From: Demequina gelatinilytica
GTDB taxonomy: Bacteria > Actinomycetota > Actinomycetes > Actinomycetales > Demequinaceae
Reading direction: 5' to 3'
Length of the DNA: 64,000 nt
NCBI RefSeq assembly: GCF_000971115.1
Contig: NZ_BBLV01000001.1
Location: forward strand, 1 to 64,000
Every line of letters begins with the position of its first letter. Position 1 is the first letter of the stretch. Shown here piece by piece: positions 1,186 to 45,047 of this stretch. The position numbers and the translations under genes are program-made. Below the pieces are notes generated by a model. That model was given only the letters and a program-made list of their open reading frames with translations. It did not search any database and was not told where the DNA came from.

Positions 1186-1211
1186 CCCAACACCTGCGCG
1201 CAAGGATGCGT
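1186..1211 (+). promoter_or_regulatory. ECF-type promoter of the first sigma gene
   Basis: CCCAAC (1186-1191), 17 nt, then CGT (1209-1211). The same AAC-N17-CGT arrangement preceded by CC occurs upstream of the sigma genes at 11155 and 44791 and of the propeller gene at 33907. This is the usual shape of an ECF promoter (AAC -35, CGT -10), which suggests autoregulation. No transcript start is known. Confidence 0.5.
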
Positions 1212-1236: not shown

Positions 1237-1797
1237 ATGCCCAGCTGGGGGGACACGCTCGAGGCGGTGATGCGGGAGCGCGGCGGCGCGCTCTTCGCGT
1301 ACGCCTACGTGCTGACGGGGGATGCGGACGATGCGCAGGACCTGGTGCAGGAGGCGCTCGTGCGGGCGTTCCGACGACGAGGCGCCCCTCAGGGCGTCGA
1401 CCCGGCCCACGCCTACGTGAAGCGCGCGATGCAGACCGCCTTCATCGATGCGCACCGCCGCGCGACGGCGCGTCCCCAGCGTGACCACCGCGAGGCGGAC
1501 CGGGTCGCACCGGACCACGCGCCGGCGACCGACACCCTCGACGCGCTCATGGACGCCGTGACGTCCCTGCCCCCGCGGGAACGCACCTGCATCGTCATGC
1601 GCTACCTCGACGGCCTGAGCGCGCAGGCGATCGCCCATGAGCTGGGGCTGGCGCCCGGCTCTGTCCGGCGATACCTGCACGACGGGATCGCGACGCTGCG
1701 ACGCACGCACGGCGACTTCGGGCTCGAGCCGGCGGACGCCGTCAGCGGCGGCGCCGACCACCACGTGATCGTCACCAGCAAGGGAGGCACGCGATGA
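1237..1797 (+). CDS. ECF sigma factor, SigE-like family (module A)
   Basis: A 186-residue ECF sigma factor. Region 2 is visible as AYAYVLTGDADDAQDLVQEA followed by AHAYVKRAM and FIDAHRRA (core binding and -10 reading). Region 4 starts at LPPRERTCIVMRYLDG and contains the HTH segment ELGLAPGSVRRYL (-35 reading). A tail of about 30 residues follows with GLEPADAVSGG, which recurs in the paralogues. Start chosen at ATG 1237 because GGGAGG lies just upstream and the paralogues begin at the same point; an earlier in-frame start would add an Arg-rich extension. It overlaps the next gene by ATGA, so the two are translationally coupled. Confidence 0.93.
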   Translation: MPSWGDTLEAVMRERGGALFAYAYVLTGDADDAQDLVQEALVRAFRRRGAPQGVDPAHAYVKRAMQTAFIDAHRRATARPQRDHREADRVAPDHAPATDTLDALMDAVTSLPPRERTCIVMRYLDGLSAQAIAHELGLAPGSVRRYLHDGIATLRRTHGDFGLEPADAVSGGADHHVIVTSKGGTR

Positions 1798-3242
1798 GCA
1801 GCGAGCTGGAGAAGGCCATGGAGCGCCGGGTCGCCGCGGGCCTTGCGGAGTACGGCGAGCGGGCCGACGCGATGGTGCCGCTCGCCCGCGCGCGCGTCCG
1901 ACGTGCCAGGACGATGCGAGCGCTGGGCACCGCGGGCCTCGCGGCCGTGGCGGTGGCCGCGGTCACCACGGTCGCGATCGCAGCGGGCGCCCGGGAGACG
2001 GTGGCGCCGGCGACGGCGAGCCCCACGCCGAGCGCATCCGCCGGCGTGGATGGGGCGCGGGACCCGCACGCGGCGCTCACCGCGGAGGACCTGCTCGCCG
2101 AGCAGGGAGGACCCGAGGACATCGCGCAGATCGCGATCCTGTGCGACGGGGCCGTGCCCCGCACCTGCGAGGAGGTGCGGTTCGGGGACTGGCAGATGCT
2201 GCAGCTCGAACCGGACGCGGCGCGGGTCGAGGTCTCCACGACCGACACCACCGCGACCGTCGGGTGGGGCGTGACCTACCAGGGCGACACGCCTCTCACC
2301 TACCTGCCGGACCTGGTCTACCCCCAGATCGAGCCGACGTGGACCTCGGTCGACGACGCGATCAGCAGGCTCACGGATCTCTCCATCCAGATCGACGCGG
2401 AGCCGGCGAGCATCGCGCCGGGGAGCACCGCGACCGGTACCGCGACCGTGGCGCTCGCACAGGGCTCGGCCGTGGCCCCCGGCACGTCCATCGACATGAC
2501 CGTGCTGGTTCCCGTCCCGTTCGCGGACGCCGCGGACACGCGCGAGCTGTGGCTGCTCGCGAGCATCGGCGGCACCCCGGTGATCGCGTCCGACGCGGAG
2601 GCCTCGACGGCCCAGACGATCACGGCCGACGACCTGATCGCGACCGAGGTCTCACGCACCATGGAGGACTTCGACCGCGGAGCCGCGCAGGCGGGGCTGC
2701 ACTGCACCGTCGAGCCGGGGCTCAACCCCCGCACGGACACGGTGGAGCAGGACTCCTTCGATCCGGTCTGCGACGCCGTCTGGCTGAGCGACGGGACCCC
2801 GCTGCTGCGGGTCACCGAGATGACCTTCGACGTCGACGAGGCCAACGACGTGGCGAGGATCCGATGGACCCTGCAGAACACCTCGGGGGTGCCGCTCTCG
2901 CTCGACACCGGCGGCATGACCCTCGCGATCGAGCAGCCGGTGGATCCCATGCCTCTGAACGACGGCGGGATCGTGTTCACCTCGGACGGGACGCTCATCG
3001 CGGGCAGCCTGTGGGCCTCGGAGACCGAGCGGTTCGGCCTGGTCCAGCGGGCGAGCACGGTGGAGACGGTCCAGCCATGGGAGCAGGTCGTGGGCGAACG
3101 CGAGGTGTTCCTCTCCGAGATCGGCGATCTCGCGTCGGCGCGGTTCTCGGTCCACGTGCGCGTCGCGCACGACGACGACACCGTGAGGACTCCGGAGGTG
3201 TTCCTCGAGTCGACGTGGGAGGGCGGGGACAGCTCGCAGTGA
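1794..3242 (+). CDS. Sigma-coupled single-pass membrane protein, two repeats of an unnamed domain (module A)
   Basis: 482 residues. The first ~42 are cytoplasmic and end in RVRRARTMR; a membrane segment spans about 44-66; a Ser/Pro/Thr/Ala linker follows; the rest is extracellular. Two copies of a ~190-residue domain can be seen, beginning at LTAEDL (about 95) and ITADDL (about 270). The second has the family marks: a Cys after Gln-Ala, a Cys two or three residues before a Trp, WTLQNTSGVPLSL, SLWASETERF and a final VFLESTW. No zinc anti-sigma HxxxCxxC motif is present. Coupling to the sigma gene by ATGA suggests a sensor/anti-sigma role, which is inference. Confidence 0.8.
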   Translation: MSSELEKAMERRVAAGLAEYGERADAMVPLARARVRRARTMRALGTAGLAAVAVAAVTTVAIAAGARETVAPATASPTPSASAGVDGARDPHAALTAEDLLAEQGGPEDIAQIAILCDGAVPRTCEEVRFGDWQMLQLEPDAARVEVSTTDTTATVGWGVTYQGDTPLTYLPDLVYPQIEPTWTSVDDAISRLTDLSIQIDAEPASIAPGSTATGTATVALAQGSAVAPGTSIDMTVLVPVPFADAADTRELWLLASIGGTPVIASDAEASTAQTITADDLIATEVSRTMEDFDRGAAQAGLHCTVEPGLNPRTDTVEQDSFDPVCDAVWLSDGTPLLRVTEMTFDVDEANDVARIRWTLQNTSGVPLSLDTGGMTLAIEQPVDPMPLNDGGIVFTSDGTLIAGSLWASETERFGLVQRASTVETVQPWEQVVGEREVFLSEIGDLASARFSVHVRVAHDDDTVRTPEVFLESTWEGGDSSQ

Positions 3243-3303
3243 GGTGATGGCGTGATCACGTCCGCGCTGGCAGGATCGGGCGCACGACCGGATCGGAGAT
3301 GGC

Positions 3304-3819
3304 ATGGGGCGGTGGGGGCGCGCGCTCGACGGCACGATGCGCGAGCACGGGGAGGCGATCTTCGCTCACGCCCGCGCGCTGGCTGGCGATGACGCAGCCG
3401 CGACCGCTCTGGTCGAGGAGGCGCTCGTGGAGACCTTCTCGCACGGCCACGTCCCCGAGTCCCCCACCGCGGGCATGCGAGCCGTGATGAGGACGATGCG
3501 CCGCGCCGCCGTGCGCGCCACCGCGCCGCCCGTCCCGCCCGCGCCGCCGGAGGGACGCGCCGACGCATCGTCCCTCGCGCGCGAAGCCCTCACGACGCTG
3601 CCCCGACGGGAGCGCGCGCTCACGGTGCTGCGCTACGGCGAGGGGCTGGCTGTCGAGGCGATCGCCGAGGAGGCCGGGCTCAAGGAGCGCGATGTGCGGG
3701 AGGGTCTCACCCGCGCCGTAAGGCTGCTGCTCTCCGCCTACCCGGGCATCGGGCTCACCGTCGAGGACGCGCTCGAGGGCGGCATGCTCGAGACGGCCTC
3801 CGTCGAGGAGGCGTGGTGA
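3304..3819 (+). CDS. Degenerate ECF sigma-like protein (module B)
   Basis: 171 residues, a paralogue of the module A sigma factor. Region 4 is recognisable (LPRRERALTVLRYGEGL, then EEAGLKERDVREGL) and the tail LTVEDALEGG matches. Region 2 is eroded: the acidic core-binding stretch reads AAATALVEEALVETF, and the segment that is FIDAHRRA in module A reads RRAAVRATA, losing the usual -10-reading residues. It may bind core or its partner without normal promoter recognition. No CCCAAC-N17-CGT box precedes it and only 61 bp separate it from module A, so it is probably read from that operon. Weak ribosome site (GGAG) before ATG 3304. Confidence 0.8.
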   Translation: MGRWGRALDGTMREHGEAIFAHARALAGDDAAATALVEEALVETFSHGHVPESPTAGMRAVMRTMRRAAVRATAPPVPPAPPEGRADASSLAREALTTLPRRERALTVLRYGEGLAVEAIAEEAGLKERDVREGLTRAVRLLLSAYPGIGLTVEDALEGGMLETASVEEAW

Positions 3820-5333
3820 GCGCGGCGCTCGAGCGCGCCATCGCGGCGGACGCGGAGGCGGGACGCGTCCTCGCGCACGCGCGCAAGGACGAGGTCCACA
3901 CGCGCGCAGGCTCGGCGGCATCGAGGCGGCGACGACGGCGGACGGCGCTGCTCGGTGGAGGCGCGGGTGCGGGCCTGGTCGCGGTGGCGGTGGCGCTCGG
4001 CGCCGTCGGCGCGGGAGGTCCCGCGGGGGCGGGCCCCGACGACCGTGATGCCGCCGCGGCGCCGAGCACCTCGGCGAGCGCATCCTCGGCTCCGGTGTCG
4101 GAAGGCGTGGGCACCATCTACGCGGAAGAGCTCATCGCGAGCGCCAAGCCGCGAGTGCGTGGCCTGCCGGTGCGGGGCCAGGCCGCCGTGCTGTGCCCGT
4201 CGGGCCTGGAGGCGGGCTCGATCGCACGATGCACGGCGGTGACCGTCGGCGAGTCGGCGCTGCTGGTCGCGGACTCGAGCATCTCGCGCATGGACCGGTT
4301 CGTGGCGGACGGCCACGCGCGGGTCAACGTGGCGGTCATGTTCACCGTGACGGGCTCACGCGCGCTCGCGGTCTCGGACGTCCTCTCCCCCGGCGTCATC
4401 GTGAGCGACCCCGATGCCGAATCCGACGGCTGGCTCGGCGGCGACAGGGCGACCTCCCTGTGGAACGGCTACACCACGCGCAGCGTGGTGATGCCTGAGC
4501 GGCCCTGGGGAGGCACGCTGGAGCCGACCTCCTACCTCTCGAGCAACCTCTCCGCGGATGCGGCCGCCCCCGACCCCGGCGAGCAGCGCGATCCCGTGTG
4601 GGCCGTCGCGAACGCCGGGGCGAACGCCGAGGGCACCGTCGTGACCAGCTGGGTCGAGGTCGAGGCGCGGACCGTCGATCCCGAGTCGACCCTGCTGCTG
4701 GAGGTGTCGACCCCGGTCCGTCCGGAGCTGGAAGGCCTTACCGCGAACGAGATCGCCGTCGGCTTCACCGAGCGGAGCCGGGACGATGCGGACCGGGAGG
4801 GCGCCACACGGGCCCTCCTGTGCGACGTGGACGATGCCTGGCGCAGGGAGGTGGACGAGCTGGGGTGGACCGTGCGGGACGGGTGCGCCGCGGGGTGGGT
4901 GGACGGCACCTACCTCAGCGCGGACGCGAACACCGACTGGGTCACCGATGGCGGTGCCGTCTGGGAGGTGCGCAACGCCTCCGGCGGCGAGCTGCTGATG
5001 AACTCGCTCACGGTGATCGTCGAGCACGACGCCGCCTCGCTCGAGCCGTCCCGGAGCGACACGTTGGGCGAGGGGTACGGCATCGCGTTCGATACCAACG
5101 CGTGGACCGGCGCGACCACCCGGTCGGCTGCGATCGCCACGTACGGCTACCCGCAGGGCTTCGCCTGGGAGCGCATGGGCGCCTGGTGGACCGAGCTGAC
5201 GAACGGCCAGCTCGCGGAGCTGGGCGAGCGAGGCGCGGCGACGGCCCAGGTCGCGATGCCCTTCCTGGGCGACGACAGCAGGATCCTGGTGCTCGAGGTG
5301 CCTCTGCCGCTCGACGAGCCCGTCGACGGCTGA
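3816..5333 (+). CDS. Sigma-coupled single-pass membrane protein, two repeats of the unnamed domain (module B)
   Basis: 505 residues from GTG 3816, which overlaps the sigma stop (GTGA) and has GAGGAG at 3805-3810; GTG 3813 would add one residue. The cytoplasmic tail ends in RRRRRRTALLGGG; the membrane segment is about 48-68, then an Ala/Ser linker. Domain 1 begins near IYAEELIAS and has RGQAAVLC; domain 2 begins near LTANEIAVGF with TRALLCDV, CAAGWV, WEVRNASG and ends in ILVLEVPL. It shares the layout of the module A partner but has diverged strongly. Role as sensor or anti-sigma is inferred from gene coupling only. Confidence 0.78.
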   Translation: MSAALERAIAADAEAGRVLAHARKDEVHTRAGSAASRRRRRRTALLGGGAGAGLVAVAVALGAVGAGGPAGAGPDDRDAAAAPSTSASASSAPVSEGVGTIYAEELIASAKPRVRGLPVRGQAAVLCPSGLEAGSIARCTAVTVGESALLVADSSISRMDRFVADGHARVNVAVMFTVTGSRALAVSDVLSPGVIVSDPDAESDGWLGGDRATSLWNGYTTRSVVMPERPWGGTLEPTSYLSSNLSADAAAPDPGEQRDPVWAVANAGANAEGTVVTSWVEVEARTVDPESTLLLEVSTPVRPELEGLTANEIAVGFTERSRDDADREGATRALLCDVDDAWRREVDELGWTVRDGCAAGWVDGTYLSADANTDWVTDGGAVWEVRNASGGELLMNSLTVIVEHDAASLEPSRSDTLGEGYGIAFDTNAWTGATTRSAAIATYGYPQGFAWERMGAWWTELTNGQLAELGERGAATAQVAMPFLGDDSRILVLEVPLPLDEPVDG

Positions 5334-5393
5334 CACCGCCATGCGGCCGCCGTGCCGCGGTGGGAGGATCGAAGGGTTCCTCGAGGGGGCGAT

Positions 5394-5909
5394 GTGAGCC
5401 ACTGGGAGAAGGTGCTCGACGCGACGATGCAGGCGCGCGCCGCCGATCTCTTCGCCTACGCGCACACCCTGACCGGGGACGATGCCATCGCAGCCCGCGT
5501 GGTCGAGGACGCGCTCGCCGCCGTGTTCGGCAGGCGCGGCTATCCCCGCACGGTCGACGAGGCCTACCCCGCGCTCGAGCACGCCATCCGGCGGGCGGCG
5601 GTGCGAGCGCACGCGTCCCCAGCCGTGGCCGGAACGGTCGAGGCCGACGGCCCGCCGTCGCTCCCGGAGGACCTGCACCACCTCCCCACCCGCGAACGGG
5701 CGCTGCTCGCGATGCGCTACGTCGACGGCCTCGCGGTCCCTGCGATCGGCGAGGAGACGGGGCTGCATCGCAGCGCGATCGAGGAGGCGCTCACGCACGC
5801 GGTCCAGGCGCTCGCGCTCTCGCACCCCGACCTCCGCCTGTCCGTCGAGGATGCGCTCGAGGGGGGCAGCGTCGCGCAGGACGAGGTCACGATCGGCGGG
5901 GAGCGGTGA
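5394..5909 (+). CDS. Degenerate ECF sigma-like protein (module C)
   Basis: 171 residues, the same length as the module B protein. Start chosen at GTG 5394, where VSHWEKVLDATM aligns with the paralogues and GAGGGGG lies upstream; an ATG at 5352 would add 14 residues. Region 4 is present (LPTRERALLAMRYVDGL, EETGLHRSAIEEAL) with the tail LSVEDALEGG. Region 2 has lost the standard DAQDLVQEA core (it reads IAARVVEDALAAVF) and the FIDxHRR motif (RRAAVRAHA). Like module B, it is therefore a doubtful promoter reader. It lies 60 bp after the module B membrane gene and overlaps the next gene by GTGA. Confidence 0.8.
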   Translation: MSHWEKVLDATMQARAADLFAYAHTLTGDDAIAARVVEDALAAVFGRRGYPRTVDEAYPALEHAIRRAAVRAHASPAVAGTVEADGPPSLPEDLHHLPTRERALLAMRYVDGLAVPAIGEETGLHRSAIEEALTHAVQALALSHPDLRLSVEDALEGGSVAQDEVTIGGER

Positions 5910-6838
5910 ACGGGGCGCTCGCTGCCGCGCTCGCTCCGCGGGACGGCGACCTGGACCCCGATGCCGTCGCGGCCGCGACCGCGCGAGCGCGCCGTCGCAT
6001 CGTGAGGAGGCGGCGACGCACCGCGACCGGCGCCGTGGCGGCAGGGGCCGTGGTGCTCGCGGGTGCCGCCGTGACGGCCGTGCTCGCGACGTCGCCCGCA
6101 GACGGCCCCGGCGGCATGCCCGCCGCGGATCCGGTCGACCCGCTCGAGCGCGTGGAGCGCAGCGTGCCCGCTGCGGAGCCTCGGGCCGACGCGGTCACCG
6201 CCGACGCATGGGTGGCGGGCTTCGCGCCCCGCACCGACGACGAGGCGCTGGCGGCGGACCGGCAGGCCGCGCTGCTGTGCGAGGTGCCGGACGCGCTTCA
6301 GGGCCTGACCGCGAGCGAGGCGGCGTGGCTGGGGCTCGAACCCCCCGCGTGCCTGGCAGGTTCCGTCGCCGGGCCGGTCCTCGAGCCGTCCCACGGCGTC
6401 CAGGTGGTCGACGGCGTCAACGGCAGCGCGGCCGACGTGGCGTGGGCGGCCGTCAACGTGTCCGACCAGGCGATCGTCACGGCGGGCTGGTCGGTCCTGT
6501 TCGAGACCGCGCCGGAGGCCGCACCATCCGAGGCGACCGCCTCGGTCCTGGGCTCGGTCACCCTCACGCGGTCCCTGTGGCTGGACGCGGCCCACCGCAG
6601 CCTCCCCTCGCCCGCCTCGCCGCGGTGGCGCGAGCTGGGCAGCGGCTCCACGCTGCTCGCGCAGACACACCTCGACCCGGACCGGACCGTGTCGGGCGCC
6701 ACCATCGACGCGGCCGCGCTGCGCACCGCGATCGCGGACGGCGCCGCGGTCACCGGCGCCGTGGTGGTGCCCTTCGAGGACGATCCGTCGACCGTGATGG
6801 TGCTCGAGGTCCCCCTCACCGGGATGGAGCCGTGGTGA
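5906..6838 (+). CDS. Sigma-coupled single-pass membrane protein, one copy of the unnamed domain (module C)
   Basis: 310 residues from GTG 5906, overlapping the sigma stop. The cytoplasmic tail is followed by the Arg cluster RRRIVRRRRRTATG and a membrane segment at about 36-58. One extracellular domain begins at VTADAWVAGF and shows DRQAALLCEV, a second Cys in PPACLAG, WAAVNVSDQAIV and a terminal VMVLEVPL. This is the shortest partner in the array and gives the best view of a single domain. Function unknown. Confidence 0.78.
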   Translation: MNGALAAALAPRDGDLDPDAVAAATARARRRIVRRRRRTATGAVAAGAVVLAGAAVTAVLATSPADGPGGMPAADPVDPLERVERSVPAAEPRADAVTADAWVAGFAPRTDDEALAADRQAALLCEVPDALQGLTASEAAWLGLEPPACLAGSVAGPVLEPSHGVQVVDGVNGSAADVAWAAVNVSDQAIVTAGWSVLFETAPEAAPSEATASVLGSVTLTRSLWLDAAHRSLPSPASPRWRELGSGSTLLAQTHLDPDRTVSGATIDAAALRTAIADGAAVTGAVVVPFEDDPSTVMVLEVPLTGMEPW

Positions 6839-8382
6839 CCGGGGACCTGGTCGAGGCGCTCGAGGCCGATGCCGGACCGGGCCCCGGGAGGGACGGCTTC
6901 GCGGGAGTCGCGGGCCGTGCGCGAGCACGCGCACGCCGCGGCCGGCGCTCGCGCGCGGTCGCCTGGGCGGCGGCAGCGTGCGTGGTGCTGGGCGGCGCCG
7001 CGATCGTGCTGCCGTCCTGGGATCGGGGCGAGGAGCCCCAGGTCACCCGGACCCTGACCCGCGCCCCCACCGTGTTCGCCGAGGACCTGACCGGCACCGT
7101 CGTCGACCGCACGCGAGGTGTGGCGTCGGTAGCACCCGCGCAGGCCTCGGTGCTGTGCTCGGTGCGGTCCGAGGCGAACCCCTGGGCGGCATCGTCCGAC
7201 GGCGGCAGCCTGCCGGTGCGCTCGGTCTGCACGGCGGCATGGGCGGGCGACGCGCCGATGCTCGCGGTGGATCCCGCCCGCACGCACCTCACCGCGTACG
7301 TGGGCGAGAAGAGCGCGGTGATCACGGTCGAATGGGCGTTGCGCAACCGCGCGGATGCACCGCTGGCGCTCGATGCCGGCGGTGTCCTGACGTCCCTCAC
7401 CACGGAGTCGACCGCCGTCACGACCGATCGGGAGTACGACCAGGACCGCTTCGCGGGCGGGTCGCTGTGGGCGTCGAACACGCAGCGCTACGCGTCGCTC
7501 AGCGGGGACTCGCGCCCCGTCACGGTCGAGCCCGGCGAGTACCTCCAGGGATCGACGCGCTTCACCGGCACCGCGCCGGAACCTGGAGCGCCGCGGGATG
7601 CCGTGTGGGACATCGCCACCGGTGCGGCCTGGCCGACCCTGGGCGTGCAGATCAGGGTCCAGCCGTTCGGCCTGTCCGGCGCCACCGAGCTGTTCCTCGA
7701 GGCGGAGACCTCGACCGAGCGCCTGGCGCCGGGCGTGAGCGCGGACACCCTGGTCGCCGACCTCACGCCCCGCGCGCCCGGCGAGTCCCGTGACGGCGCT
7801 CAGGCCGCCCTGCTGTGCAAGGTCCCCCCTGAGCTCCGGCCCGAACCCGGCGGCGCCTTCCCGTACGCGGCCGGCGAGGTGACGTGCCGGGCCGGATGGC
7901 TCCCCGACGCGGTGGTGGTCGATCAGTCGTCGCTCGCGCTCACCGCAGGCGAGATCGCACCGGTGGTCGGCTGGGGCGTCGTCTCGCGCGCCGAGGGCGC
8001 CCTCACCGTATCGGGATGGAGCCTGCTTATCGAGAGCGGTTCCCTGGCGGACGGGACGGCACCGCTGCTGCGGCTCGGCTCCGCGGTGGTGACCACTGCC
8101 ACGGCGTGGGATCCCGACGGCCACCGCACGGCGCTGCTCGACAACGCGACGATGGAGATCGACGTCGACCCGGGTGAGGCCATCACGGGGTACGACTCGC
8201 TCTTCCCCGCGATGCTCACCGACGGCCAGCCGATCGATGTCGACGCGGTCGCGATGGCGATCGCGAGCGGCGGCGCGGCAACCGCGCAGGTCGAGGTGCC
8301 GTTCCTTGATGACGCCCGCAGGGTCCTGATCCTCGAGACCCCGCTCGCGGGACCCTTGGCCTCCCCGTCCGCATCACCCTGA
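6835..8382 (+). CDS. Membrane protein of the same family without its own sigma gene (module D)
   Basis: 515 residues from GTG 6835, overlapping the module C membrane gene by GTGA. A cytoplasmic tail rich in Ala/Arg ([17 protein letters not shown]) leads to a membrane segment at about 42-60. Two domains follow: the first from VFAEDLTGTV with SVLCSV, CTAAWAGDAP, WALRNRADAPLALD, SLWASNTQRY, TVEPGEYL and ELFLEAET; the second from VSADTLVADL with AQAALLCKV, CRAGWL and ILETPL. It is the only member directly following another membrane gene rather than a sigma gene, so it may act with the module C sigma or have lost its own. Confidence 0.78.
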   Translation: MTGDLVEALEADAGPGPGRDGFAGVAGRARARARRGRRSRAVAWAAAACVVLGGAAIVLPSWDRGEEPQVTRTLTRAPTVFAEDLTGTVVDRTRGVASVAPAQASVLCSVRSEANPWAASSDGGSLPVRSVCTAAWAGDAPMLAVDPARTHLTAYVGEKSAVITVEWALRNRADAPLALDAGGVLTSLTTESTAVTTDREYDQDRFAGGSLWASNTQRYASLSGDSRPVTVEPGEYLQGSTRFTGTAPEPGAPRDAVWDIATGAAWPTLGVQIRVQPFGLSGATELFLEAETSTERLAPGVSADTLVADLTPRAPGESRDGAQAALLCKVPPELRPEPGGAFPYAAGEVTCRAGWLPDAVVVDQSSLALTAGEIAPVVGWGVVSRAEGALTVSGWSLLIESGSLADGTAPLLRLGSAVVTTATAWDPDGHRTALLDNATMEIDVDPGEAITGYDSLFPAMLTDGQPIDVDAVAMAIASGGAATAQVEVPFLDDARRVLILETPLAGPLASPSASP

Positions 8383-8457
8383 AGCCGGACCCTGCGTTTC
8401 CGTCCGCGCATGCGTCTGAAGCGGTGGAAGGATTCACGCGACGGGACGGGGGCTGCG

Positions 8458-9015
8458 GTGAGCGGGTGGTCGGACACGTTGGATGCGCTGGTGCGCGAGC
8501 GTGGCAGGACGCTGTACGGGTACGCGTTCGTGCTCACCGGGTCGCGCGAGGCCGCGGACGACCTGCTTCAGGACGCGCTCGTGCGCGCCTTCAAGCGCGG
8601 ACGCGGGCCCGAGTCGCTCGACGCCGCGCATGCCTACGTCAAGCGCGCGATGCAGACGGCCCTCATCGACTCGCACCGGCGGGCGAGCGTCCGGCCCCAG
8701 CGGGACCGCCGCGAGGCCGACCGCGTCGCGCCCGACCCGACCGGCGCATCGTCGACGCGGGACGCGCTGCTCCAGGCGGTGCACTCGCTCCCACCACGTG
8801 AGCGGACCTGCGTGGTGATGCGGTACTTCGACGGCCTGTCCTCGACCGCCATCGCGTCCGAGCTCGGGCTCTCCTCGGGGACGGTCCGCGGATACCTCTC
8901 GACCGCGCTCGCGACGCTGCAGCGCACGTACGGCGACTTCGGGCTCGATCCCGCAGACGCGATCGAGGGCGGAGACGAGCACGTGGTGATCCTCACGAAG
9001 GGAGCGGGACGATGA
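8458..9015 (+). CDS. ECF sigma factor, SigE-like family (module E)
   Basis: 185 residues and the closest relative of the module A sigma factor. Region 2 is intact (YGYAFVLTGSREAADDLLQDA, then AHAYVKRAMQ and ALIDSHRRA) and region 4 is standard (LPPRERTCVVMRYFDGL, ELGLSSGTVRGYL), with tail GLDPADAIEGG. Start chosen at GTG 8458 to match the paralogues; ATG 8410 would add 16 residues. Upstream (8383-8457) I could not find the CCCAAC-N17-CGT pattern seen at other modules. It overlaps the partner gene by ATGA. Confidence 0.92.
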   Translation: MSGWSDTLDALVRERGRTLYGYAFVLTGSREAADDLLQDALVRAFKRGRGPESLDAAHAYVKRAMQTALIDSHRRASVRPQRDRREADRVAPDPTGASSTRDALLQAVHSLPPRERTCVVMRYFDGLSSTAIASELGLSSGTVRGYLSTALATLQRTYGDFGLDPADAIEGGDEHVVILTKGAGR

Positions 9016-10502
9016 GCAACGAGCTGATGGAATCCCTCGCGAGGGGCGCGGATGCGGGCGGCGACCTGTTCGACTCGCGCGTGTCCTCGGTGGTGGACCC
9101 CGCGCGGAGCCGGGTGCGACGCGCCAGGACGATGCGCGGCGTGGGCCTCGCCGGTGCGGCGACCGTCGCGGCGGTCGGCATCGCGGTGGGCGCCTCGACG
9201 CTGGGCGGCCGAGGGACCGATGTCGCTCCCGCCGACCCCACCCCGACCGGGACCGCTCTCACCGCGAACGACCTGCGCTGGGACACCGCGCCACGCGTGC
9301 GCGGCGAGGCCGGCACGGGCCAGGCCGCGGTCGAGTGCACCTTCGACCACGTCAAGGCGAACCCGTGGAGCGACGGGCACTCGGGGTCGGTGACCGACGA
9401 CTGCGCGGCGCTGTGGGTCGGCGACGCCCCTGTGCTCGAGGTGGGCGAGGCGACGGTCGAGATCGCGGGCGACGGAGCGGTGACCGTCCGCTGGACCGTC
9501 TCCAACGCCTCGGATACCGCCATCACGGTCGACCCAGCCGCGACCACCCTGCTGTTCGGCACCGATCCCGATGCGGTGTCGACCGGCATCAGCCTCGTGG
9601 ACGATGCGACCGTCGCGCTCGGACCGTGGTCGGACGACACGACGCGCCACGTGACCATGGACGGGGACACGAGCCCGATGCGGCTCGAGCCGGGCGGCAC
9701 GTTCTCGGGAACCTCGCTCCTCTCGCCGGACGACCTGGATGGTCCGGGCCTCCCCTCCCTCCTCGACGACCTCACGTCGACGACCGGACAGGCGACCATC
9801 ACGGTCCAGGTCCGAATCCCGCCCGCCGGTGCGGTCTCCACCAGCGAGCTGTTCCTCGAGGCCGAGACGACCGTCCACCCGACCGGGACGCTCGACCCCA
9901 TCTCGCCCGCGCTCGAGGGCCTCGAGGCCCGTACCGCAGGCGAGATCAGGGACGATGCGCAAGCCGCGCTTCTGTGCCACGTGGGCGATGCCGACAATCC
10001 GCGCACGAGCACCAGTCGCGAGGGCGACGACGGCGGCCCCTGGCTCACGCAGCCGCTGTGCCCCACGGTCTGGGTGCCGGGCGGGCAGCAGCTCGAGCTC
10101 ACCCGCCTGCTGTTCGCCTCGGAGCCGAACGCCGGGATGATCCCGGTCACGTGGACGCTCACGAACGTGTCCGATCAGGCGCTCAGGCTCGACCGCGCGG
10201 CGATGGGGATCGTCGTCGAGATCGACGGCGCAGGGTGGATGTCCTCGACCGAGAACACCACGGTCGGCTGGCCCGCCGAGGGCGACGAACGCTACGGCTA
10301 CCTCTCGTCGGAGTCCGACGTGGTCACCGTCGAGCCGGGCGGGACCGTGACCGGGGAGGCCACGCTCGATGTGGGCGAGATCGAGGGTGCGGACAGGTTC
10401 TACGTCACCATCCGGGTCGCGCGCGACGACGACGAGAACGGCGCGCGTGAGCTGGTCCTCGAGACGGAGTGGGAGCAGCCGCCGACCAGCGCCGGCTCGT
10501 AG
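9012..10502 (+). CDS. Sigma-coupled single-pass membrane protein, two repeats of the unnamed domain (module E)
   Basis: 496 residues. The cytoplasmic part ends in RVRRARTMR, as in module A, and the membrane segment is about 43-63. Domain 1 starts at LTANDLRW with GQAAVECTF, DDCAALWVGDAP, WTVSNASDTAITVD and ELFLEAET. Domain 2 has AQAALLCHV, LCPTVWVPG, WTLTNVSDQALRLD, TVEPGGTVTGE, VTIRVARDDDE and LVLETEW. The stop is immediately followed by the stop of the opposing metallopeptidase gene. As for the other partners, a signal-sensing anti-sigma role is plausible but unproven. Confidence 0.8.
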   Translation: MSNELMESLARGADAGGDLFDSRVSSVVDPARSRVRRARTMRGVGLAGAATVAAVGIAVGASTLGGRGTDVAPADPTPTGTALTANDLRWDTAPRVRGEAGTGQAAVECTFDHVKANPWSDGHSGSVTDDCAALWVGDAPVLEVGEATVEIAGDGAVTVRWTVSNASDTAITVDPAATTLLFGTDPDAVSTGISLVDDATVALGPWSDDTTRHVTMDGDTSPMRLEPGGTFSGTSLLSPDDLDGPGLPSLLDDLTSTTGQATITVQVRIPPAGAVSTSELFLEAETTVHPTGTLDPISPALEGLEARTAGEIRDDAQAALLCHVGDADNPRTSTSREGDDGGPWLTQPLCPTVWVPGGQQLELTRLLFASEPNAGMIPVTWTLTNVSDQALRLDRAAMGIVVEIDGAGWMSSTENTTVGWPAEGDERYGYLSSESDVVTVEPGGTVTGEATLDVGEIEGADRFYVTIRVARDDDENGARELVLETEWEQPPTSAGS

Positions 10503-11042
10503 CTAGTCGACGGCGCGGCCGTTGAGCTCGGCCCGGTGCTCGCGCCAACCCGGCAGGTACGTGTCCATGATCGCGCGGAAGCCCGGCCCGTGGTTGGGCT
10601 CGAGCAGGTGGGCGAGCTCATGGACCACCACGTACTCGACCAGGTGGTGGTCCTGCCGGCCGAGCTCGACGCTGAAGGTGATCACGCGGGTGGTGTGGTT
10701 GCAGGTCCCCCAGCGGGAGCGCATGATCCGCATCCGCCACGTGGGCTCCGGCACGCCCATGCGAGGCACCCACTCGGCGACCACCGCGGCCAGCAGGGGC
10801 CGCAGCTCGCGGCGCAGCGCATCCGCCTCGGGCCCGGGCGCGAGAGCGACGGGCCGTGCGACGGCCTCGGCCTGCTTCGCCGCGATCCACGCCGCCTTGG
10901 ACCGCACCCACGCATCGATCTCGCGCTGCGGGGCACGCAACGGAGCGCTCACCCGCACCTCCCCGGTGCCGGAGACGACCACCATGCGCAGGTTCTTCAT
11001 GCGCTTACGCGTGAGGGTGTACGCGGGGATCCGGTCGGGCAT
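10503..11042 (-). CDS. YgjP/DUF45-type zinc metallopeptidase
   Basis: 179 residues from ATG 11042. The active-site motif HELAH is at 141-145, followed by a conserved NHGPGF stretch, and SRWGTCN lies at about 109-115, both typical of the DUF45 (YgjP/WLM-like, M48-related) family. No signal peptide is seen, so it should act in the cytoplasm; substrates of this family are mostly unknown. An upstream in-frame ATG at 11183 would add 47 residues overlapping the neighbouring promoter and is less likely. It ends exactly where the module E membrane gene ends. Confidence 0.85.
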   Translation of the reverse strand: MPDRIPAYTLTRKRMKNLRMVVVSGTGEVRVSAPLRAPQREIDAWVRSKAAWIAAKQAEAVARPVALAPGPEADALRRELRPLLAAVVAEWVPRMGVPEPTWRMRIMRSRWGTCNHTTRVITFSVELGRQDHHLVEYVVVHELAHLLEPNHGPGFRAIMDTYLPGWREHRAELNGRAVD

Positions 11043-11101
11043 GCGCCCACTGTAGGTGCGCGCGCCGACACCTCCGCGTCTGTCCACAGCCCCGAATCGT
11101 C

Positions 11102-11127
11102 CCCAACCTGCGCGCCCATCCATGCGT
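11102..11127 (+). promoter_or_regulatory. ECF-type promoter of the module F sigma gene
   Basis: CCCAAC with AAC at 11105-11107, 17 nt, CGT at 11125-11127. The spacer even shares CCTGCGCGC and ATG with the promoter-like sequence at 1186-1211. The start codon lies 28 nt further on behind GAGGAG. Confidence 0.5.
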
Positions 11128-11154
11128 ACTACCCGGCATGAGGAGAATCGAGCC

Positions 11155-11703
11155 ATGAGCGCGTGGGCCAGGATGCTCGACACGCTGGTCCGCGAGCGCG
11201 GCCCGGCGCTGTACGGGTACGCCTACGTGTTGACCGGGTCCCGCGAGGCGGCCGAGGACCTGATGCAGGACGCGCTGGTGCGCACCTTCCGCTCGGGAAG
11301 GGCCCTGGGCTCGCTCGACTCGGCGCACGCCTACGTGAAGCGATGCATCTCCACAGCGTTCATCGACAGCGGGCGACGCGCCGCCGCGAGGCCCCGCAGC
11401 GCGGGCATCGAGGCGCCCGAGGCCGCGGCCATCGCACCCGACGCGAGCCGGCACGTGGACGATGCCGTGACCCTGCAGGCGGCGCTGCTCACCCTCACGC
11501 CCCGCGAGCGGGCGTGCGTGGTGCTGCGCTACCTCGAGGACATGACCGTGGCCGGTGTCGCGCAGACGCTCGGGCTCGCGGAGGGCACGGTCAAGCGCTA
11601 CCTCTCCGACGGCGTGGCGCGGCTGCGCGAGACCGTCCCCCAGATCGACTTCACGGACGTCGAGACCGTCGCCGTCCACCAGCACCCAGGAGGCATCCGA
11701 TGA
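11155..11703 (+). CDS. ECF sigma factor, SigE-like family (module F)
   Basis: 182 residues from ATG 11155, with GAGGAGA upstream. Region 2 is intact (YGYAYVLTGSREAAEDLMQDA, AHAYVKRCIS, FIDSGRRA). Region 4 begins LTPRERACVVLRYLEDMTV and contains QTLGLAEGTVKRYL. The tail differs from modules A and E, lacking the DAxEGG motif. It overlaps the next gene by ATGA. An in-frame ATG at 11056 exists but would place the promoter-like CCCAAC box inside the gene. Confidence 0.93.
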   Translation: MSAWARMLDTLVRERGPALYGYAYVLTGSREAAEDLMQDALVRTFRSGRALGSLDSAHAYVKRCISTAFIDSGRRAAARPRSAGIEAPEAAAIAPDASRHVDDAVTLQAALLTLTPRERACVVLRYLEDMTVAGVAQTLGLAEGTVKRYLSDGVARLRETVPQIDFTDVETVAVHQHPGGIR

Positions 11704-12683
11704 GCACCGCGCACGATGCGCTGGCCGCGATCCGCGCGACCGCCGCACAGGACTTCGCCACGACCGGGCTGAGCGCCGGCCTCTCCCCCGTGACCCGCCG
11801 CGTGCGCCGCCACCGTGCGGTGCGGGCCGCCACCGGCTCGGTCGCCGGCATCGCGGCGCTCGGCGCCGGTGTGTACGGCTACTCGCGCTGGGGGGCCGCC
11901 GTGCCGGTGGCGCCCGCGAGCACCTCGCCGTCGGTCCAGGCCACCACGCCCGCATCGTCCGCCACGGCGGAACCGAGCGGCTCTCCCGAGGCGATGGTGA
12001 GCTCGGAGCCCGTCACCGCGGACTACCTGGTCGCCGAGGGCGACACCATCGAGGCCACCGTCACCGCGCTCGCCACGGTCTACTCCGCGACCGCGGAAGA
12101 GGCCCGCGCCGCGATCGTCGCCGCGCTGCCGCCCGAGGCCGAGGACGACCCCGAGGGATGGGTGTCGCCCGGCTCCGAGCTCGCGCCCACCACGCTCGAG
12201 GAGGCCGCGCAGTGGCTGGTGGACCTGCAGCTGCGGAACCTCCAGTCCATGGGGGTCGCGCGCGAGGACTGGAAGGAGACGCTCACCATCGCATCGATCC
12301 TGGTGGGCGAGTCCGGCGACCCGTACAACTGGACCAGGATCTCCGAGGTGATCCACAACCGGCTCGACGCGGGCATGATGCTCCAGCTGGAGTCGCCGCT
12401 GTACTACATCACGGGCGCCGCCGAGCGGCGGGTCACCGACGACGGCTTCGCGGTCGACTCGCCGTACAACACCTTCATGTACGAGGGCCTGCCGCCGACG
12501 CCGATCGGCTCCTCCGGGCTCGGCGCCGTGGACGCGGCGGCGCATCCCGAATCCGGCGACCTGATGTTCTTCCTGATCGATCCCGAGACCGGCGACGGGC
12601 ACTTCGCCGAGACGTTCCACCAGCACCAGCTCAATGCGGTCGAGCTCGGGATGATCGAGGCGGGCGACGTCCTCCCGGAGTGA
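11700..12683 (+). CDS. Sigma-coupled membrane protein with MltG/YceG-like extracellular domain (module F)
   Basis: 327 residues. The cytoplasmic tail ends in RRVRRHRAVR (33-42), the membrane segment is about 46-62, then a Ser/Pro/Thr linker to about 105. From about 108 the protein resembles the LysM-like and catalytic parts of the MltG endolytic transglycosylase: PEGWVSP (151-157), TIASILVGES (196-205), HNRLDAGMMLQ (219-229), SPYNTF (254-259) and GLPPTPIG (263-270). In ordinary MltG the helix reads ASIVEKE; here it is ASILVGE, so only the second of the two acidic residues (Glu204) remains. It may bind glycan without cleaving it. The ATGA overlap with a sigma gene suggests cell-wall sensing. 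Confidence 0.82.
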   Translation: MSTAHDALAAIRATAAQDFATTGLSAGLSPVTRRVRRHRAVRAATGSVAGIAALGAGVYGYSRWGAAVPVAPASTSPSVQATTPASSATAEPSGSPEAMVSSEPVTADYLVAEGDTIEATVTALATVYSATAEEARAAIVAALPPEAEDDPEGWVSPGSELAPTTLEEAAQWLVDLQLRNLQSMGVAREDWKETLTIASILVGESGDPYNWTRISEVIHNRLDAGMMLQLESPLYYITGAAERRVTDDGFAVDSPYNTFMYEGLPPTPIGSSGLGAVDAAAHPESGDLMFFLIDPETGDGHFAETFHQHQLNAVELGMIEAGDVLPE

Positions 12684-17140: not shown

Positions 17141-18151
17141 ATGACTCTTGGCGGCCCTCAGGCCTGGCTCCTGCTTGCCGCCGACGACAACCGAGGTCAT
17201 GCGGGCAACGATGGCTACGACGACCAGGTCGACGCGTACTACTCCTGGGACAGCAACGTCCCCAACCACAAGAAGCTCGCAGTCGGCGACCCCATCGCGC
17301 TCTGGGACAAGGAGCGGCTTCTCGGAGTCTCTGTCATCGAGGAGATCACGACGACGCGGGGCCCGAAGATGCTGAGCCGGTGTCCGCGATGCAGAGCTAC
17401 GCGGATCAGCGAACGCAAGACACGCGCTCCCCGATACCGATGCATGAAGTCGGAATGCCGCCATGAGTTCGATGAGCCGCACATCGATGTGGTGGAGGTG
17501 GACCGCTTCCGGGCAAGGTACGACGCGGGCTGGACACCGCTCGACGGCCTGCTCGTCGGTGCGGAGATCCGCGACCTCACGGTGCACGCTGGAGACTTCA
17601 ACGCGATGAGACCGATCGACTGGAACGCGATGGAGAGCGCGCTGACGGAGAAGCGCGCCGAGCGCGCGCTCGCGCGCGTGAGGGGGCGCATGCCACAGGT
17701 CACGCGACCGACCTCAGGCATCACCGTCGCCATGCCCCAGGGCTTCCGGCACGCGCTCGTCCGGGTGCGCAAGGGTCAGACCCAGTTCCGCACCCAGATC
17801 CTCGCCCAGCAAGGCCGAGTCTGCGCGTTCACGGGTGGAGCCCCTGAACGCGTTCTGGAAGCCGGGCACCTGTACAGCTACGCCCAGCTCGGCGAGCACC
17901 GCCCCCACGGCGGCCTCATGCTCAGGCGAGATATCCATCGGCTGTTCGACGACGGCTTGCTTGCGGTCGACCCGACGCGCTTCCGAGTCGATGTCGCTCC
18001 CGACCTTGCGGCCTACCCCCAGTACGAGAGGCTCCATGGCGAGCCTCTCACCGTCGGCCTCAGGGATGAGCAGGTCGACTGGCTCGCCAAGTATTGGGAT
18101 GAGCACCGAAGCCCGCTGCACGCACAGCGCTCGCTGGTCGCCCGGCAGTAG
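17141..18151 (+). CDS. HNH endonuclease with N-terminal EVE/PUA-like region
   Basis: 336 residues. The first ~70 (QAWLLLAADDNRG, YYSWDS, LAVGDPIALWD, LLGVSVIEEI) resemble an EVE/PUA-like modified-base reader, though this is weaker than the rest. A zinc ribbon follows (Cys 81, 84, 101, 106). The C-terminal HNH nuclease shows VCAFTG, AGHLYSYA (His243) and GGLMLRRDIHRLFDDGLL at about 258-274. This plan fits modification-dependent (type IV-like) restriction. It sits 6 bp before a Vsr-like nuclease gene, with no methyltransferase nearby. The DNA looks less GC-rich than its neighbours, suggesting transfer. Confidence 0.8.
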   Translation: MTLGGPQAWLLLAADDNRGHAGNDGYDDQVDAYYSWDSNVPNHKKLAVGDPIALWDKERLLGVSVIEEITTTRGPKMLSRCPRCRATRISERKTRAPRYRCMKSECRHEFDEPHIDVVEVDRFRARYDAGWTPLDGLLVGAEIRDLTVHAGDFNAMRPIDWNAMESALTEKRAERALARVRGRMPQVTRPTSGITVAMPQGFRHALVRVRKGQTQFRTQILAQQGRVCAFTGGAPERVLEAGHLYSYAQLGEHRPHGGLMLRRDIHRLFDDGLLAVDPTRFRVDVAPDLAAYPQYERLHGEPLTVGLRDEQVDWLAKYWDEHRSPLHAQRSLVARQ

Positions 18152-18157
18152 CGTCGG

Positions 18158-18586
18158 ATGATGGACCGCGATGTCTCCTGGGCCTCCACCCCCGGCGTCG
18201 CGCGGTCGATGCGCGGCAACAGGAAGCGTGACACGAAGCCCGAGCTCGCCGTCCGACGCATCGTCCACGCCGCGGGGCTCCGCTACCGGGTGGCCGCGCA
18301 GCCCATCCGGGGCATGCGTCGCACCGCGGACCTGCTCTTCCGCCCCACCAAGGTGGCGGTGTTCATCGACGGTTGCTTCTGGCACTCATGCCCCGTCCAC
18401 GGCACCAGCCCTCGCGCCCACAGCGACTACTGGCTCCCCAAGCTCGAGCGCAACCGCGAGCGCGACCGCGAGACCACCGCCACTCTCGAGGCCGCCGGCT
18501 GGCTGGTCCTGCGCTTCTGGGAGCACGAGGATCCTGACGAGGTCGCCGCGAGCATCGTCGCGGCCGTCCTGGGCCGCCGCTCCTGA
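18158..18586 (+). CDS. Very short patch repair (Vsr)-type endonuclease
   Basis: 142 residues with the Vsr layout: DTKPELAVRRIVHAAGLRYR at the start, RRTADLLF (Asp about 58, the metal site), VFIDGCFWHSCPVHG (69-82) with the zinc Cys/His residues, and KLERNRERDRETTATLEAAG toward the end. Classical Vsr nicks T:G mismatches arising from deamination at methylated cytosine and is paired with a methylase; none is seen here. The six-base gap to the HNH gene indicates one operon, so it may act in defence rather than in mismatch repair. Confidence 0.87.
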   Translation: MMDRDVSWASTPGVARSMRGNRKRDTKPELAVRRIVHAAGLRYRVAAQPIRGMRRTADLLFRPTKVAVFIDGCFWHSCPVHGTSPRAHSDYWLPKLERNRERDRETTATLEAAGWLVLRFWEHEDPDEVAASIVAAVLGRRS

Positions 18587-42635: not shown

Positions 42636-44249
42636 CTACTGCTCGACCACGTAGAGCGCCCCGCGCCCGCTGCCCGGTCCCGCGAGGATCTGGAGCACGT
42701 ACCGGCCGTCGGGGGACGCCACCGGCATGCCGCCCTCGATCCAGCCATCGGCGGTGGGCGCAGGGGCGCCCGAGGTGAGCGTCGGCTCGATCACGAGCGA
42801 GCGGTAGGACTCCTCCCCGCAGAGCGAAGCGAGCGCGACCACGCGCGAGCCGCTCGCGGAGTAGACGCCCACGCTGTTGCGCAGCTTCGCCTCAGCCACC
42901 GTGCCCGTGGCGGCGTCGATCGATGCGGCGCCCGAGCTCCCCACCGCGACCGCATGGCCGTCGGACGTCCAGACCGGAGGGTAGTCCGAGTCCACGTCCG
43001 CCTGCGCGATCAGCGCGCCATCGCGCGACGCCACGGTCAGGCGCGTGCGGTGCGGCTCGTCGTCGCGTGCGGTGAGCACCGCGATGTACGAGGAGTCCGC
43101 GGACCACACGGGGGCGCCGCGGTCCGCATAGCTCGTGGACGCGCCAAGGGTCGCACCGGTGGCGCCGACGGCCGCGAGCTCTCCCGACTCGGCGTCGAGC
43201 AGCTTGGTGCCGTACTCGGCGGCCGCGGCGATCATCGTGCCATCGGGCGAGTACGCAGGCCACCCGCCTGCCCGGAGCCGCTGCTGATCCCCCGTCTCGG
43301 CATCGACACGCATGACGACGGGGAACGACCCGCCCATGCGGCCGCCGCCCGTCGCGCTCGCCGCGCCGTACACGATGTCGCCGGTGAGCGGCGAGACGTC
43401 GTACCCATGGATACGGTCCGCGCGTGCGACCTCGGACACGTCGCCCGTGGCCACCTCGCCCCGGTAGAGGATGTGGGTGCCGTCCTCGGCCGCGCCGATC
43501 CAGAGCACGAACGTGCCGTCGGGCGACCACCGGACGGGGCTGAGCGACTCGACGGCGAAGCCCTCGGACAGCTCGGTGGCCGCGCCGTCGACACCGAGGA
43601 TCCAGACCGCGCCCGGACCCACCGTGAGCACGGCTGCGCGGGTGGAGTCCGGAGACCAGACCATGTCCACGATCCCGTCCCTCGCCTCGTCACCGCGGAA
43701 CCGCGTGAGCGCATGGGTCGCGTCCGACCGTGCCGGCGAGGCAGGGGCACCATGCGCCTTGAGGTTCCACGGCGCACCCAGGTAGTCGGTGTTCGAGCTC
43801 GTGTCGGCGCAGCGGATGCTCGCGAGCGCGAGCCCCGCATACACGTCGCCGCTCGTGTCGAACTGCGGGACGGTGGGCGTGACCTCGGTGGGCGCGGGCG
43901 TAGGCGAGGCCGACGGAAGCGCCTGGGCCGTCGCGGTCGCCTGCGGCGTGGCCGAGGCGGACGGCGTGGCGCTCGGCGTGGCGGAGGGCGTCACGCTGGG
44001 CGACGGGCTGGTCGACACGGTCGGCGCCGCGGGCGCCGGCTCTCCGCCCCACGCACCGATCGACAGGAAGCCGATCCCGCCCGCGGCCACGATGCCCATG
44101 GCGACCGCCCCCGTCAGGACGGCGGAGCGGGTCCGGCGGCGGCGACGGGCGGCGCCGCCGAGCTGCGCGGCCGAAGCCGGGTCGAGCGAGCCGGCGCTCG
44201 CCGCCAACGCCTGCTCGCGGCGGCGCATCATCTCCTCGAGATCGTTCAT
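42636..44249 (-). CDS. Sigma-coupled membrane beta-propeller protein (module G)
   Basis: 537 residues from ATG 44249, overlapping the sigma stop by ATGA. The cytoplasmic tail has MNDLEEMMRRREQ and AARRRRRTRSAV; the membrane segment is about 43-64; then a long Thr/Pro/Ser/Ala linker. The extracellular part is a propeller with blades IVDMVWSPDSTRAAVL, PVRWSPDGTFVLWIG, PAYSPDGTMIAAAAEYG, PVWSADSSYIAVLT and PPVWTSDGHAVAVG. It plays the same genomic part as the repeat-domain proteins of 1794-10502, which points to a sensor slot that can be filled by different outside domains. Confidence 0.85.
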   Translation of the reverse strand: MNDLEEMMRRREQALAASAGSLDPASAAQLGGAARRRRRTRSAVLTGAVAMGIVAAGGIGFLSIGAWGGEPAPAAPTVSTSPSPSVTPSATPSATPSASATPQATATAQALPSASPTPAPTEVTPTVPQFDTSGDVYAGLALASIRCADTSSNTDYLGAPWNLKAHGAPASPARSDATHALTRFRGDEARDGIVDMVWSPDSTRAAVLTVGPGAVWILGVDGAATELSEGFAVESLSPVRWSPDGTFVLWIGAAEDGTHILYRGEVATGDVSEVARADRIHGYDVSPLTGDIVYGAASATGGGRMGGSFPVVMRVDAETGDQQRLRAGGWPAYSPDGTMIAAAAEYGTKLLDAESGELAAVGATGATLGASTSYADRGAPVWSADSSYIAVLTARDDEPHRTRLTVASRDGALIAQADVDSDYPPVWTSDGHAVAVGSSGAASIDAATGTVAEAKLRNSVGVYSASGSRVVALASLCGEESYRSLVIEPTLTSGAPAPTADGWIEGGMPVASPDGRYVLQILAGPGSGRGALYVVEQ

Positions 44250-44791
44250 CGCTGCCCCCTCGTGATGGTGACGGACACACGGTCCGAGCTGTCGAGCTGC
44301 GCGTCCGTGCCGAGGCGCGAGTTGAGCGCGGAGAGGCCGTCCGAGACGTAGCGCTTCACGGCGCCCTCGGACAGCCCGAGCGCGGCGGCGGTGTCGCGGA
44401 CGCTCATGTCGTCGAGGAAGCGCAGCACCACGCACGCACGCTCCCGAGGCGGAAGGGACTGCAGGGCTGCATCGAGGTCCGGCCAGGGCTCCGCCGGCCG
44501 GTCCGAGTGCGCGCGGGGCGTCTGAGCCGCGACCCTCCGCACGGTCGCATCATGGCGCGAGCTCTTGCGCCCGCGATCGACGAACCTTGTCGCGATCGCC
44601 TTGCGCACATACGCGTCCGCCGCGTCGAGCGACGCGAAGCGGCGGTGGCGGGCGAAGACCGCCACCATCGCATCGTGCACCAGGTCCGGCGCCTCATCCG
44701 GGCCCGCGAGCATGGTCGCGAGCGCCATCAGCCTCCCGTAGCGCTCCCGGCAGAGCGCCTCGAACATCGGTTCAGCAGCCTTGGTCACCAC
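44246..44791 (-). CDS. ECF sigma factor, SigE-like family (module G)
   Basis: 181 residues from GTG 44791 (GTG 44788 also possible), with GAGGGGGG upstream. Region 2: ALATMLAGPDEAPDLVHDAM, ADAYVRKAIATRFVDRGRKS; region 4: LPPRERACVVLRFLDDMSV and LGLSEGAVKRYVSDGL. The order and coupling are the same as in the 1.2-12.7 kb array, on the opposite strand 32 kb away. Confidence 0.92.
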   Translation of the reverse strand: MVTKAAEPMFEALCRERYGRLMALATMLAGPDEAPDLVHDAMVAVFARHRRFASLDAADAYVRKAIATRFVDRGRKSSRHDATVRRVAAQTPRAHSDRPAEPWPDLDAALQSLPPRERACVVLRFLDDMSVRDTAAALGLSEGAVKRYVSDGLSALNSRLGTDAQLDSSDRVSVTITRGQR

Positions 44792-44819
44792 GATCCGATC
44801 ACCCCCCTCAGCCCTATGA

Positions 44820-44845
44820 ACGTGAGACCTCCGTCCGAGGTTGGG
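44820..44845 (-). promoter_or_regulatory. ECF-type promoter of the module G sigma gene
   Basis: Read leftward: CCCAAC with AAC at 44840-44842, 17 nt, CGT at 44820-44822, followed by TCATAG. Matches the boxes at 1186, 11102 and 33988. Confidence 0.5.
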
Positions 44846-44994
44846 GGGACCGCGCTCGCGCACGCCCCGTGGATCTCCATGCTCATGGCTCGCCCCTTCG
44901 CCGATCGCTTCCGAAGACCCTAGCCGGGCCGGCACCGCGAACCGGCGACTCCTCATCACGATTCCGTCACAGAGGCGCACGACGGGGCCGAACG

Positions 44995-45038
44995 CACGGA
45001 GGCCCCGCATCGTCACCGGACGATGCGGGGCCTCCGTG
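44995..45038 (-). terminator. Terminator of ilvD with inverted GGACGATGC core
   Basis: Twenty-base-pair stem (CACGGAGGCCCCGCATCGTC and its complement at 45019-45038) around a four-base loop, nine bp past the ilvD stop. The + arm contains GGACGATGC (45018-45026); the other has eight of nine bases. Confidence 0.88.
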
Positions 45039-45047
45039 GGGATGCGA

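Follow-up and report, generated by a model that had tools for sequence, protein, structure and literature searches.

Tandem modules of intact and degenerate SigE-like sigma factors coupled to putative membrane sensors with an apparently new ectodomain in Demequina gelatinilytica

Do the sigma factor-like and membrane protein genes crowded at the start of a Demequina gelatinilytica contig form one signaling system, and do all of the sigma-like proteins in it still act as sigma factors? The stretch of DNA analyzed here (positions 1 to 64,000 of contig NZ_BBLV01000001.1; hereafter the window) carries, on its plus strand between positions 1237 and 12683, five sigma-like genes (sigA, sigB, sigC, sigE, and sigF) against six partner genes (pA to pF). 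The reading that we favor, with moderate confidence, is an array of autoregulated sigma/anti-sigma envelope sensors that has expanded in tandem and includes pairs of a pseudo-sigma and a membrane partner as possible decoys. The sigma/anti-sigma part is of a known kind; the conserved class of pseudo-sigmas coupled to membrane sensors is a new form of it.

Open reading frames and their junctions were read directly. Module A consists of sigA (1237..1797), an intact SigE-like extracytoplasmic function (ECF) sigma factor of 186 residues with Pfam Sigma70_r2 and r4_2 domains, and pA (1794..3242), a partner with a cytoplasmic N-terminus (residues 1-42), a single transmembrane span (43-63), and two ectodomains; the two genes overlap by ATGA. 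In modules B and C, sigB (3304..3819) and sigC (5394..5909) each encode a degenerate sigma-like protein of 171 residues and overlap by GTGA with the genes of single-span partners, pB with two ectodomains (3816..5333) and pC with one (5906..6838). Another partner with two ectodomains, pD (6835..8382), is GTGA-coupled to the upstream pC and has no sigma gene of its own, which accounts for six partners beside five sigmas and was missed in the initial annotation of the locus. Module E pairs an intact SigE-like ECF sigma factor (sigE, 8458..9015) with a single-span partner bearing two ectodomains (pE, 9012..10502), and module F pairs a further intact one (sigF, 11155..11703) with pF (11700..12683). 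The coupling itself was described correctly: ATGA or GTGA is the junction at all five sigma-partner pairs. All 11 array genes are under purifying selection, with ratios of nonsynonymous to synonymous substitution (dN/dS) of 0.04-0.38 against the D. subtropica genome G011 (sigA 0.04, sigE 0.06, sigF 0.11, sigB 0.22, and sigC 0.26); the reading frames and their proteins are real.

Two classes of sigma-like protein were distinguished. With the ECF superfamily model TIGR02937 (curated cut-off 42.9 bits), sigA, sigE, and sigF scored 73.2, 75.2, and 70.6 bits, and their matches to Pfam Sigma70_r2 and r4_2 were above cut-off; sigB and sigC, at 37.0 and 23.6 bits, were both below the superfamily cut-off and had no Pfam Sigma70_r2 match. 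The best match for all five was TIGR02983 (SigE-fam_strep), yet its scores of 119, 124, 125, 56, and 46 bits remained under the curated 141.55. The same division was recovered from 15 Demequina loci and the window, which gave 30 intact and 20 B/C-type proteins: a tree of 52 array sigmas separates intact from degenerate with support of 99/95 and 96/96 on two branches. Intermediate between the classes are two sigma-like proteins with long inserts in the linker, L042_2121 (L042:1989-2744) and L045_3802 (L045:3718-4473; both in array orientation), which have lost part of the contact residues and so have some losses in common with the degenerate class.

The losses are specific. Nine positions are invariant in the intact class (D35, Q38, H58, K62, T67, D71, R74, R75, and P80; 30/30), whereas among B/C proteins D35 is kept in 3/20 and the other eight in 0/20, and a deletion spans the FID-x-HRR stretch. 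In the window, sigB has lost D35, Q38, Y60, K62, I70-D71, and R74-R75 of the intact class, and sigC shows the same losses. When aligned with M. tuberculosis SigL and placed on the usual layout of ECF sigma factors, these residues map to region 2.2, which binds core polymerase, and to regions 2.3-2.4, which read the -10 element. In the sigma4 recognition helix, too, the degenerate class is less basic than the intact one (mean charge +0.25 against +1.03). Other positions are held throughout the B/C proteins (L26, G28, A40, L41, L111, R116, R122, and L147 in 20/20), and one conserved residue is their own (E38, 19/20). Reading frames are open in all 20 copies, which come from 11 genomes, and strong matches to the degenerate class were confined to genomes with the array. 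An AlphaFold2 model built from degenerate sequences only retains the sigma2-sigma4 fold, with a mean predicted local distance difference test score (pLDDT) of 84 and a predicted template-modeling score (pTM) of 0.79.

The promoter regions divide in the same manner. Upstream alignments of the A, E, and F orthologs have CCC[AT][AG]C-N15-TGCGT in common, while the B and C types lack it and have other elements instead. Exactly three matches occur in the window, where 0.08 are expected, and they are found only before sigA (CCCAAC-N15-TGCGT, 1186..1211, first base 51 bp upstream, conserved in orthologs), sigE (CCCTGC-N15-TGCGT, 8390..8415, 68 bp upstream), and sigF (CCCAAC-N15-TGCGT, 11102..11127, 53 bp upstream), all on the plus strand. 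Footprinting gave conserved candidate elements without the ECF-type motif on that strand upstream of sigB (ctggcaggatcggg, 3267..3280) and sigC (gcggtgggaggatcgaagg, 5357..5375). With one mismatch allowed, the ECF-type motif is present ahead of 29 of the 30 intact genes and of none of the 20 degenerate ones, although these counts come from phylogenetically dependent genes, most of which had been used to find the motif. The description of all modules as sigma factor and sensor pairs thus fits A, E, and F only, since sigB and sigC have lost both the residues for polymerase and promoter contact and the ECF-type promoter.

Six genomes without the array provided an independent check. Ten of their 19 exact CCCAAC-N15-TGCGT sites are located 56-72 bp before intact SigE-like sigma genes; another is followed at 49 bp by a gene for a serpin-like lipoprotein, and yet another at 35 bp by one for a small lipoprotein. 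Array genomes have additional sites ahead of both of these lipoprotein genes, as well as of another sigma gene and of a Wzz-like exopolysaccharide gene; these targets were located by pattern search, and their names (serpin-like, lipoprotein, Wzz-like) come from reading the sequences rather than from family searches. Because of the sites before SigE-like genes in both kinds of genome, the motif looks like the type of promoter that intact SigE-like sigmas use throughout the genus. Single genomic matches are no proof of a target, because a looser pattern gave 17 matches in the window's genome against 16 for the reversed control, a weak enrichment. The shared motif nevertheless offers a testable regulon. 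A further intact SigE-like sigma gene with a CCCAAC-N15-TGCGT promoter was observed at G000:C10:29600-30150 (L095) and is conserved in G011 and G002. Candidate targets at L097, L098, L101, L102, L106, L110, L115, and L125 are the serpin-like lipoprotein and the small lipoprotein, which carries a PACG[ND]E motif. The ATG of the latter is found 9 bases past TGCGT in all five genomes where the gene was found, a spacing that suggests leaderless transcripts.

What do the partners sense? It had been proposed that they contain about nine copies of one domain of no known family, and this was borne out by BLASTP and profile searches. Nine homologous copies of ~200 residues, each with two cysteines, are present in pA to pE, all on the plus strand: A1 (2070..2573), A2 (2610..3224), B1 (4110..4721), B2 (4731..5315), C1 (6185..6826), D1 (7066..7716), D2 (7729..8355), E1 (9249..9875), and E2 (9894..10478). 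The best BLASTP pairs were E1/D1 (1e-26), A2/E2 (7e-21), and C1/D2 (9e-17); A1 is the most divergent copy, with the weakest BLASTP link (0.004), yet it scored 81 bits with the family hidden Markov model (HMM). Only C30, C52, and L203 are invariant among the nine. Among the marks listed in the initial annotation, both cysteines are therefore general, but the others occur in most copies only, and C-x-x-W is absent from A1, B1, and C1. The two invariant cysteines suggest a Cys30-Cys52 disulfide. Applied to the 15 relative loci and the window, the nine-copy HMM collected 88 domain copies, with the consensus TAedL...PR.rGe....QAALLC...C.AVWV..PLL...V.W.v.NvS..L.vD...SlW.sd..R.A...L.PG...G...TvQVRVPf...ReL.LEvp.

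Structure prediction of one copy had been set beforehand as a test of the domain. The AlphaFold2 model of E1, with 65 copies as input, is mainly beta with short helices and of high confidence (pLDDT 94.6, pTM 0.92). Foldseek gave no global match to this model in the PDB: the best E-value was 6e-4, for a GH3 beta-glucosidase with a TM-score of 0.23, and among the matches listed the highest query-normalized TM-score was 0.34 (BsuPI, 3isy), with none above 0.5. A viral fold library gave low TM-scores only. The ectodomain is thus all-beta like BsuPI and other immunoglobulin-like domains (3isy, the GH3 C-terminal domain), to which it shows weak Foldseek matches, but it differs from them in the low score (<=0.34) and in having no sequence match. 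A search of PDB sequences with the domain profile gave 0 matches at E<=10. No Pfam family was matched by more than 2 of the 65 copies (best E 0.01, none above the gathering score), and the complete pA to pE proteins had no match to any Pfam or NCBIfam family. With no Pfam, PDB-sequence, or global fold match, the ectodomain is, as far as these searches reach, a new family in a beta-sandwich-like fold class. A genus-restricted family with a confident model suits structural and ligand work.

Module F, which the initial annotation grouped with the modules sharing the domain, has a different ectodomain. That of pF is YceG/MltG-like (PF02618, E=3e-34, 119 bits against a cut-off of 32.4), with PDB matches to 4iiw, 8yq7, and 2r1f; at the EKE motif of MltG one aligned Glu is kept and another is replaced. 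The N-terminal span of pF was under the hydropathy threshold used, and its membrane topology is assigned by analogy. An ectodomain resembling a cell-wall enzyme is unusual in itself for a sigma partner. A similar arrangement is present outside the array in module G (window 42636-45100, minus strand), in which a SigE-like sigma gene overlaps by ATGA the gene of a single-span partner with TolB/WD40-like repeat motifs and a beta-propeller-like ectodomain.

On the inner side of the membrane the partners are more uniform. They begin with a basic cytoplasmic stretch of 39-43 residues, cross the membrane once at about residues 43-63, and expose an acidic ectodomain in which every domain has two cysteines; positive-inside topology with a single span was found in pA, pB, pC, and pE. 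These four combine a neighboring sigma gene, a cytoplasmic tail, and a membrane span, features looked for in a membrane-anchored anti-sigma factor; pD has no sigma of its own. Across nine species, residues 1-40 of pE have a mean identity of 81% against 49% for the ectodomains, the pattern expected of an anti-sigma tail that is held constant while the ligand side of the sensor drifts. The contrast is weaker for pA orthologs (57% in the tail, 40-49% outside). In CnrY-type class II anti-sigma factors, the tail forms two helices that wrap sigma2 and sigma4, and it is likewise a short cytoplasmic segment ahead of the membrane span. For class I anti-sigma domains, a mean length of about 101 residues is reported, with a filter set at 50 (PMC7406223). 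Because the partner tail is shorter than these, a CnrY-like plan appears to be the nearest known one, with the likeness limited to length and plan.

In the mechanism that we propose, the tail of the membrane partner in modules A, E, and F would hold the intact sigma, and a change at the ectodomain would free it. The freed sigma would transcribe its own operon from the CCC[AT][AG]C-N15-TGCGT promoters, together with shared targets such as the SigE-like sigma genes, the serpin-like lipoprotein, and the small lipoprotein. The proteins sigB and sigC most likely no longer start transcription and may bind anti-sigma tails instead, as the sigma-like domain of PhyR does; signals at the B and C ectodomains would thereby alter the amount of free intact sigmas. 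Autoregulation by the intact sigmas is a very probable prediction, and anti-sigma binding by the partners, predicted from coupling, topology, and tail conservation, is quite probable. Decoy action of sigB and sigC is a more tentative prediction by analogy, to which we give somewhat less than an even chance. The signal is putatively envelope-related. Should B and C prove to be decoys, a switch could evolve into a regulator of other switches when a sigma/anti-sigma pair is duplicated and the copy then loses its ability to read DNA. A fuller form, in which sigB and sigC are released by their own sensors and displace sigA, sigE, and sigF from the tails so that inputs add on one promoter class, is speculative and we consider it doubtful; if true, PhyR-like anti-anti-sigma logic would have evolved independently by duplication and decay within one array, with its own sensor family.

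The array resembles known pairs of an ECF sigma and a membrane anti-sigma factor (SigW-RsiW; the actinobacterial SigE family, TIGR02983) in its overlapping genes for a sigma and a single-span partner, and in that sigA, sigE, and sigF carry sigma2 and sigma4 and an apparently autoregulatory ECF-type promoter. It differs in the ~42-residue tail without a known anti-sigma domain, in the new-family ectodomain, and in having several paralogous modules in tandem, two of them with a degenerate sigma. For sigB and sigC, the closest known logic appears to be that of PhyR, whose sigma-like domain keeps the ECF structure with degenerated promoter and core contacts and titrates NepR (PMC8103513). The ECF fold with lost core and promoter contacts is common to both, the best TM-scores among the matches listed for the degenerate model were to PhyR-NepR (0.51-0.52) and SigW-RsiW (0.50), and a weak match to the NCBIfam PhyR family was found (sigB 3.8e-5, sigC 7.8e-4). 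Unlike PhyR, sigB and sigC are actinobacterial proteins of sigma domains only, with no receiver domain and no NepR, and are coupled to a membrane sensor.

Several observations weigh against envelope sensors with decoys, besides the shared ancestry of the upstream regions counted above. The structural match to PhyR is weak evidence, because ECF models in the closed form generally have a PhyR-like shape. The motif is genus-wide, so it does not fix which SigE-like sigma uses which site. The dN/dS of sigB and sigC is about five times that of sigA and sigE (0.22-0.26 against 0.04-0.06), which decaying genes would fit too. Simple decay would leave the B and C partners as sensors without output, the sigma-like genes persisting for translational coupling or for stability of the module fold; the joint loss of protein function sites and ECF promoter agrees with it. 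We judge this possible but not likely: dN/dS is still well under 1, the frames are open in 20 copies of 20, the clade keeps conserved residues of its own (E38 as well as L26, G28, R116, R122, and L147), and an upstream element is conserved within the B and C subtypes.

The tail is a further difficulty for the proposed mechanism: its ~42 residues match no known anti-sigma domain model in Pfam or NCBIfam. This and the wide variation of the ectodomains, from MltG-like in F to beta-propeller-like in G, could mean that the partners are unrelated envelope proteins, co-transcribed with a sigma and controlled by it, rather than anti-sigma factors. Such an arrangement is improbable given the start-stop overlap of sigma and partner in every module of every species, the conservation of the pE tail far above its ectodomain, and a basic tail and single-span plan that stay constant across unrelated ectodomains. 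It is similarly unlikely that sigB and sigC are working sigmas with changed specificity or conditional activation, by phosphorylation as in EcfP/ECF43 or as part of a split sigma like SigO-RsoA. Region 4 is kept, and the absence of an acidic DAED-type core-binding motif recalls EcfP (PMC8999054, PMC8103513). However, no conserved Ser or Thr was found in place of the motif among 18 aligned B/C-type sequences, and region 2.4 is deleted as well, beyond repair by phosphorylation; for both reasons EcfP-like activation is less likely. No separate sigma2-only gene was seen in the array.

The initial suggestion of an expanding sensor repertoire agrees with the distribution of the domain, which was found in 17 of the 396 genomes searched within the order and, of 109 genera, in Demequina alone. 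In a class-wide sample of 395 genomes it occurred in none except the window's own, and a search with pE gave nothing further elsewhere in that genome. Loci of relatives, sought with nine E1 orthologs as the query set, were found in D. subtropica, D. iriomotensis, D. rhizosphaerae, D. maris, D. silvatica, D. soli, and D. phytophila. Within this one genus, some species have partners with a single domain, and others carry 3-4 such modules in an array; the repertoire is thus seen in expansion, with one-domain modules surviving in sister species. In the literature searched, no publication relevantly joining Demequina with sigma factor work was found.

The array is located at contig ends in most draft genomes, including the window. 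An assembly fault was the first impression and was set aside given the one complete genome examined, G026, in which a ribosomal RNA operon (L040 11301-16528) adjoins the array; this operon probably breaks the draft assemblies at that point. Between modules E and F, the minus strand of the window carries a gene for a YgjP/SprT-like metallopeptidase (10503-11045). Farther downstream (17141-18586), an HNH_2 endonuclease gene stands beside a Vsr-like endonuclease gene, possibly a remnant of a restriction or defense system.

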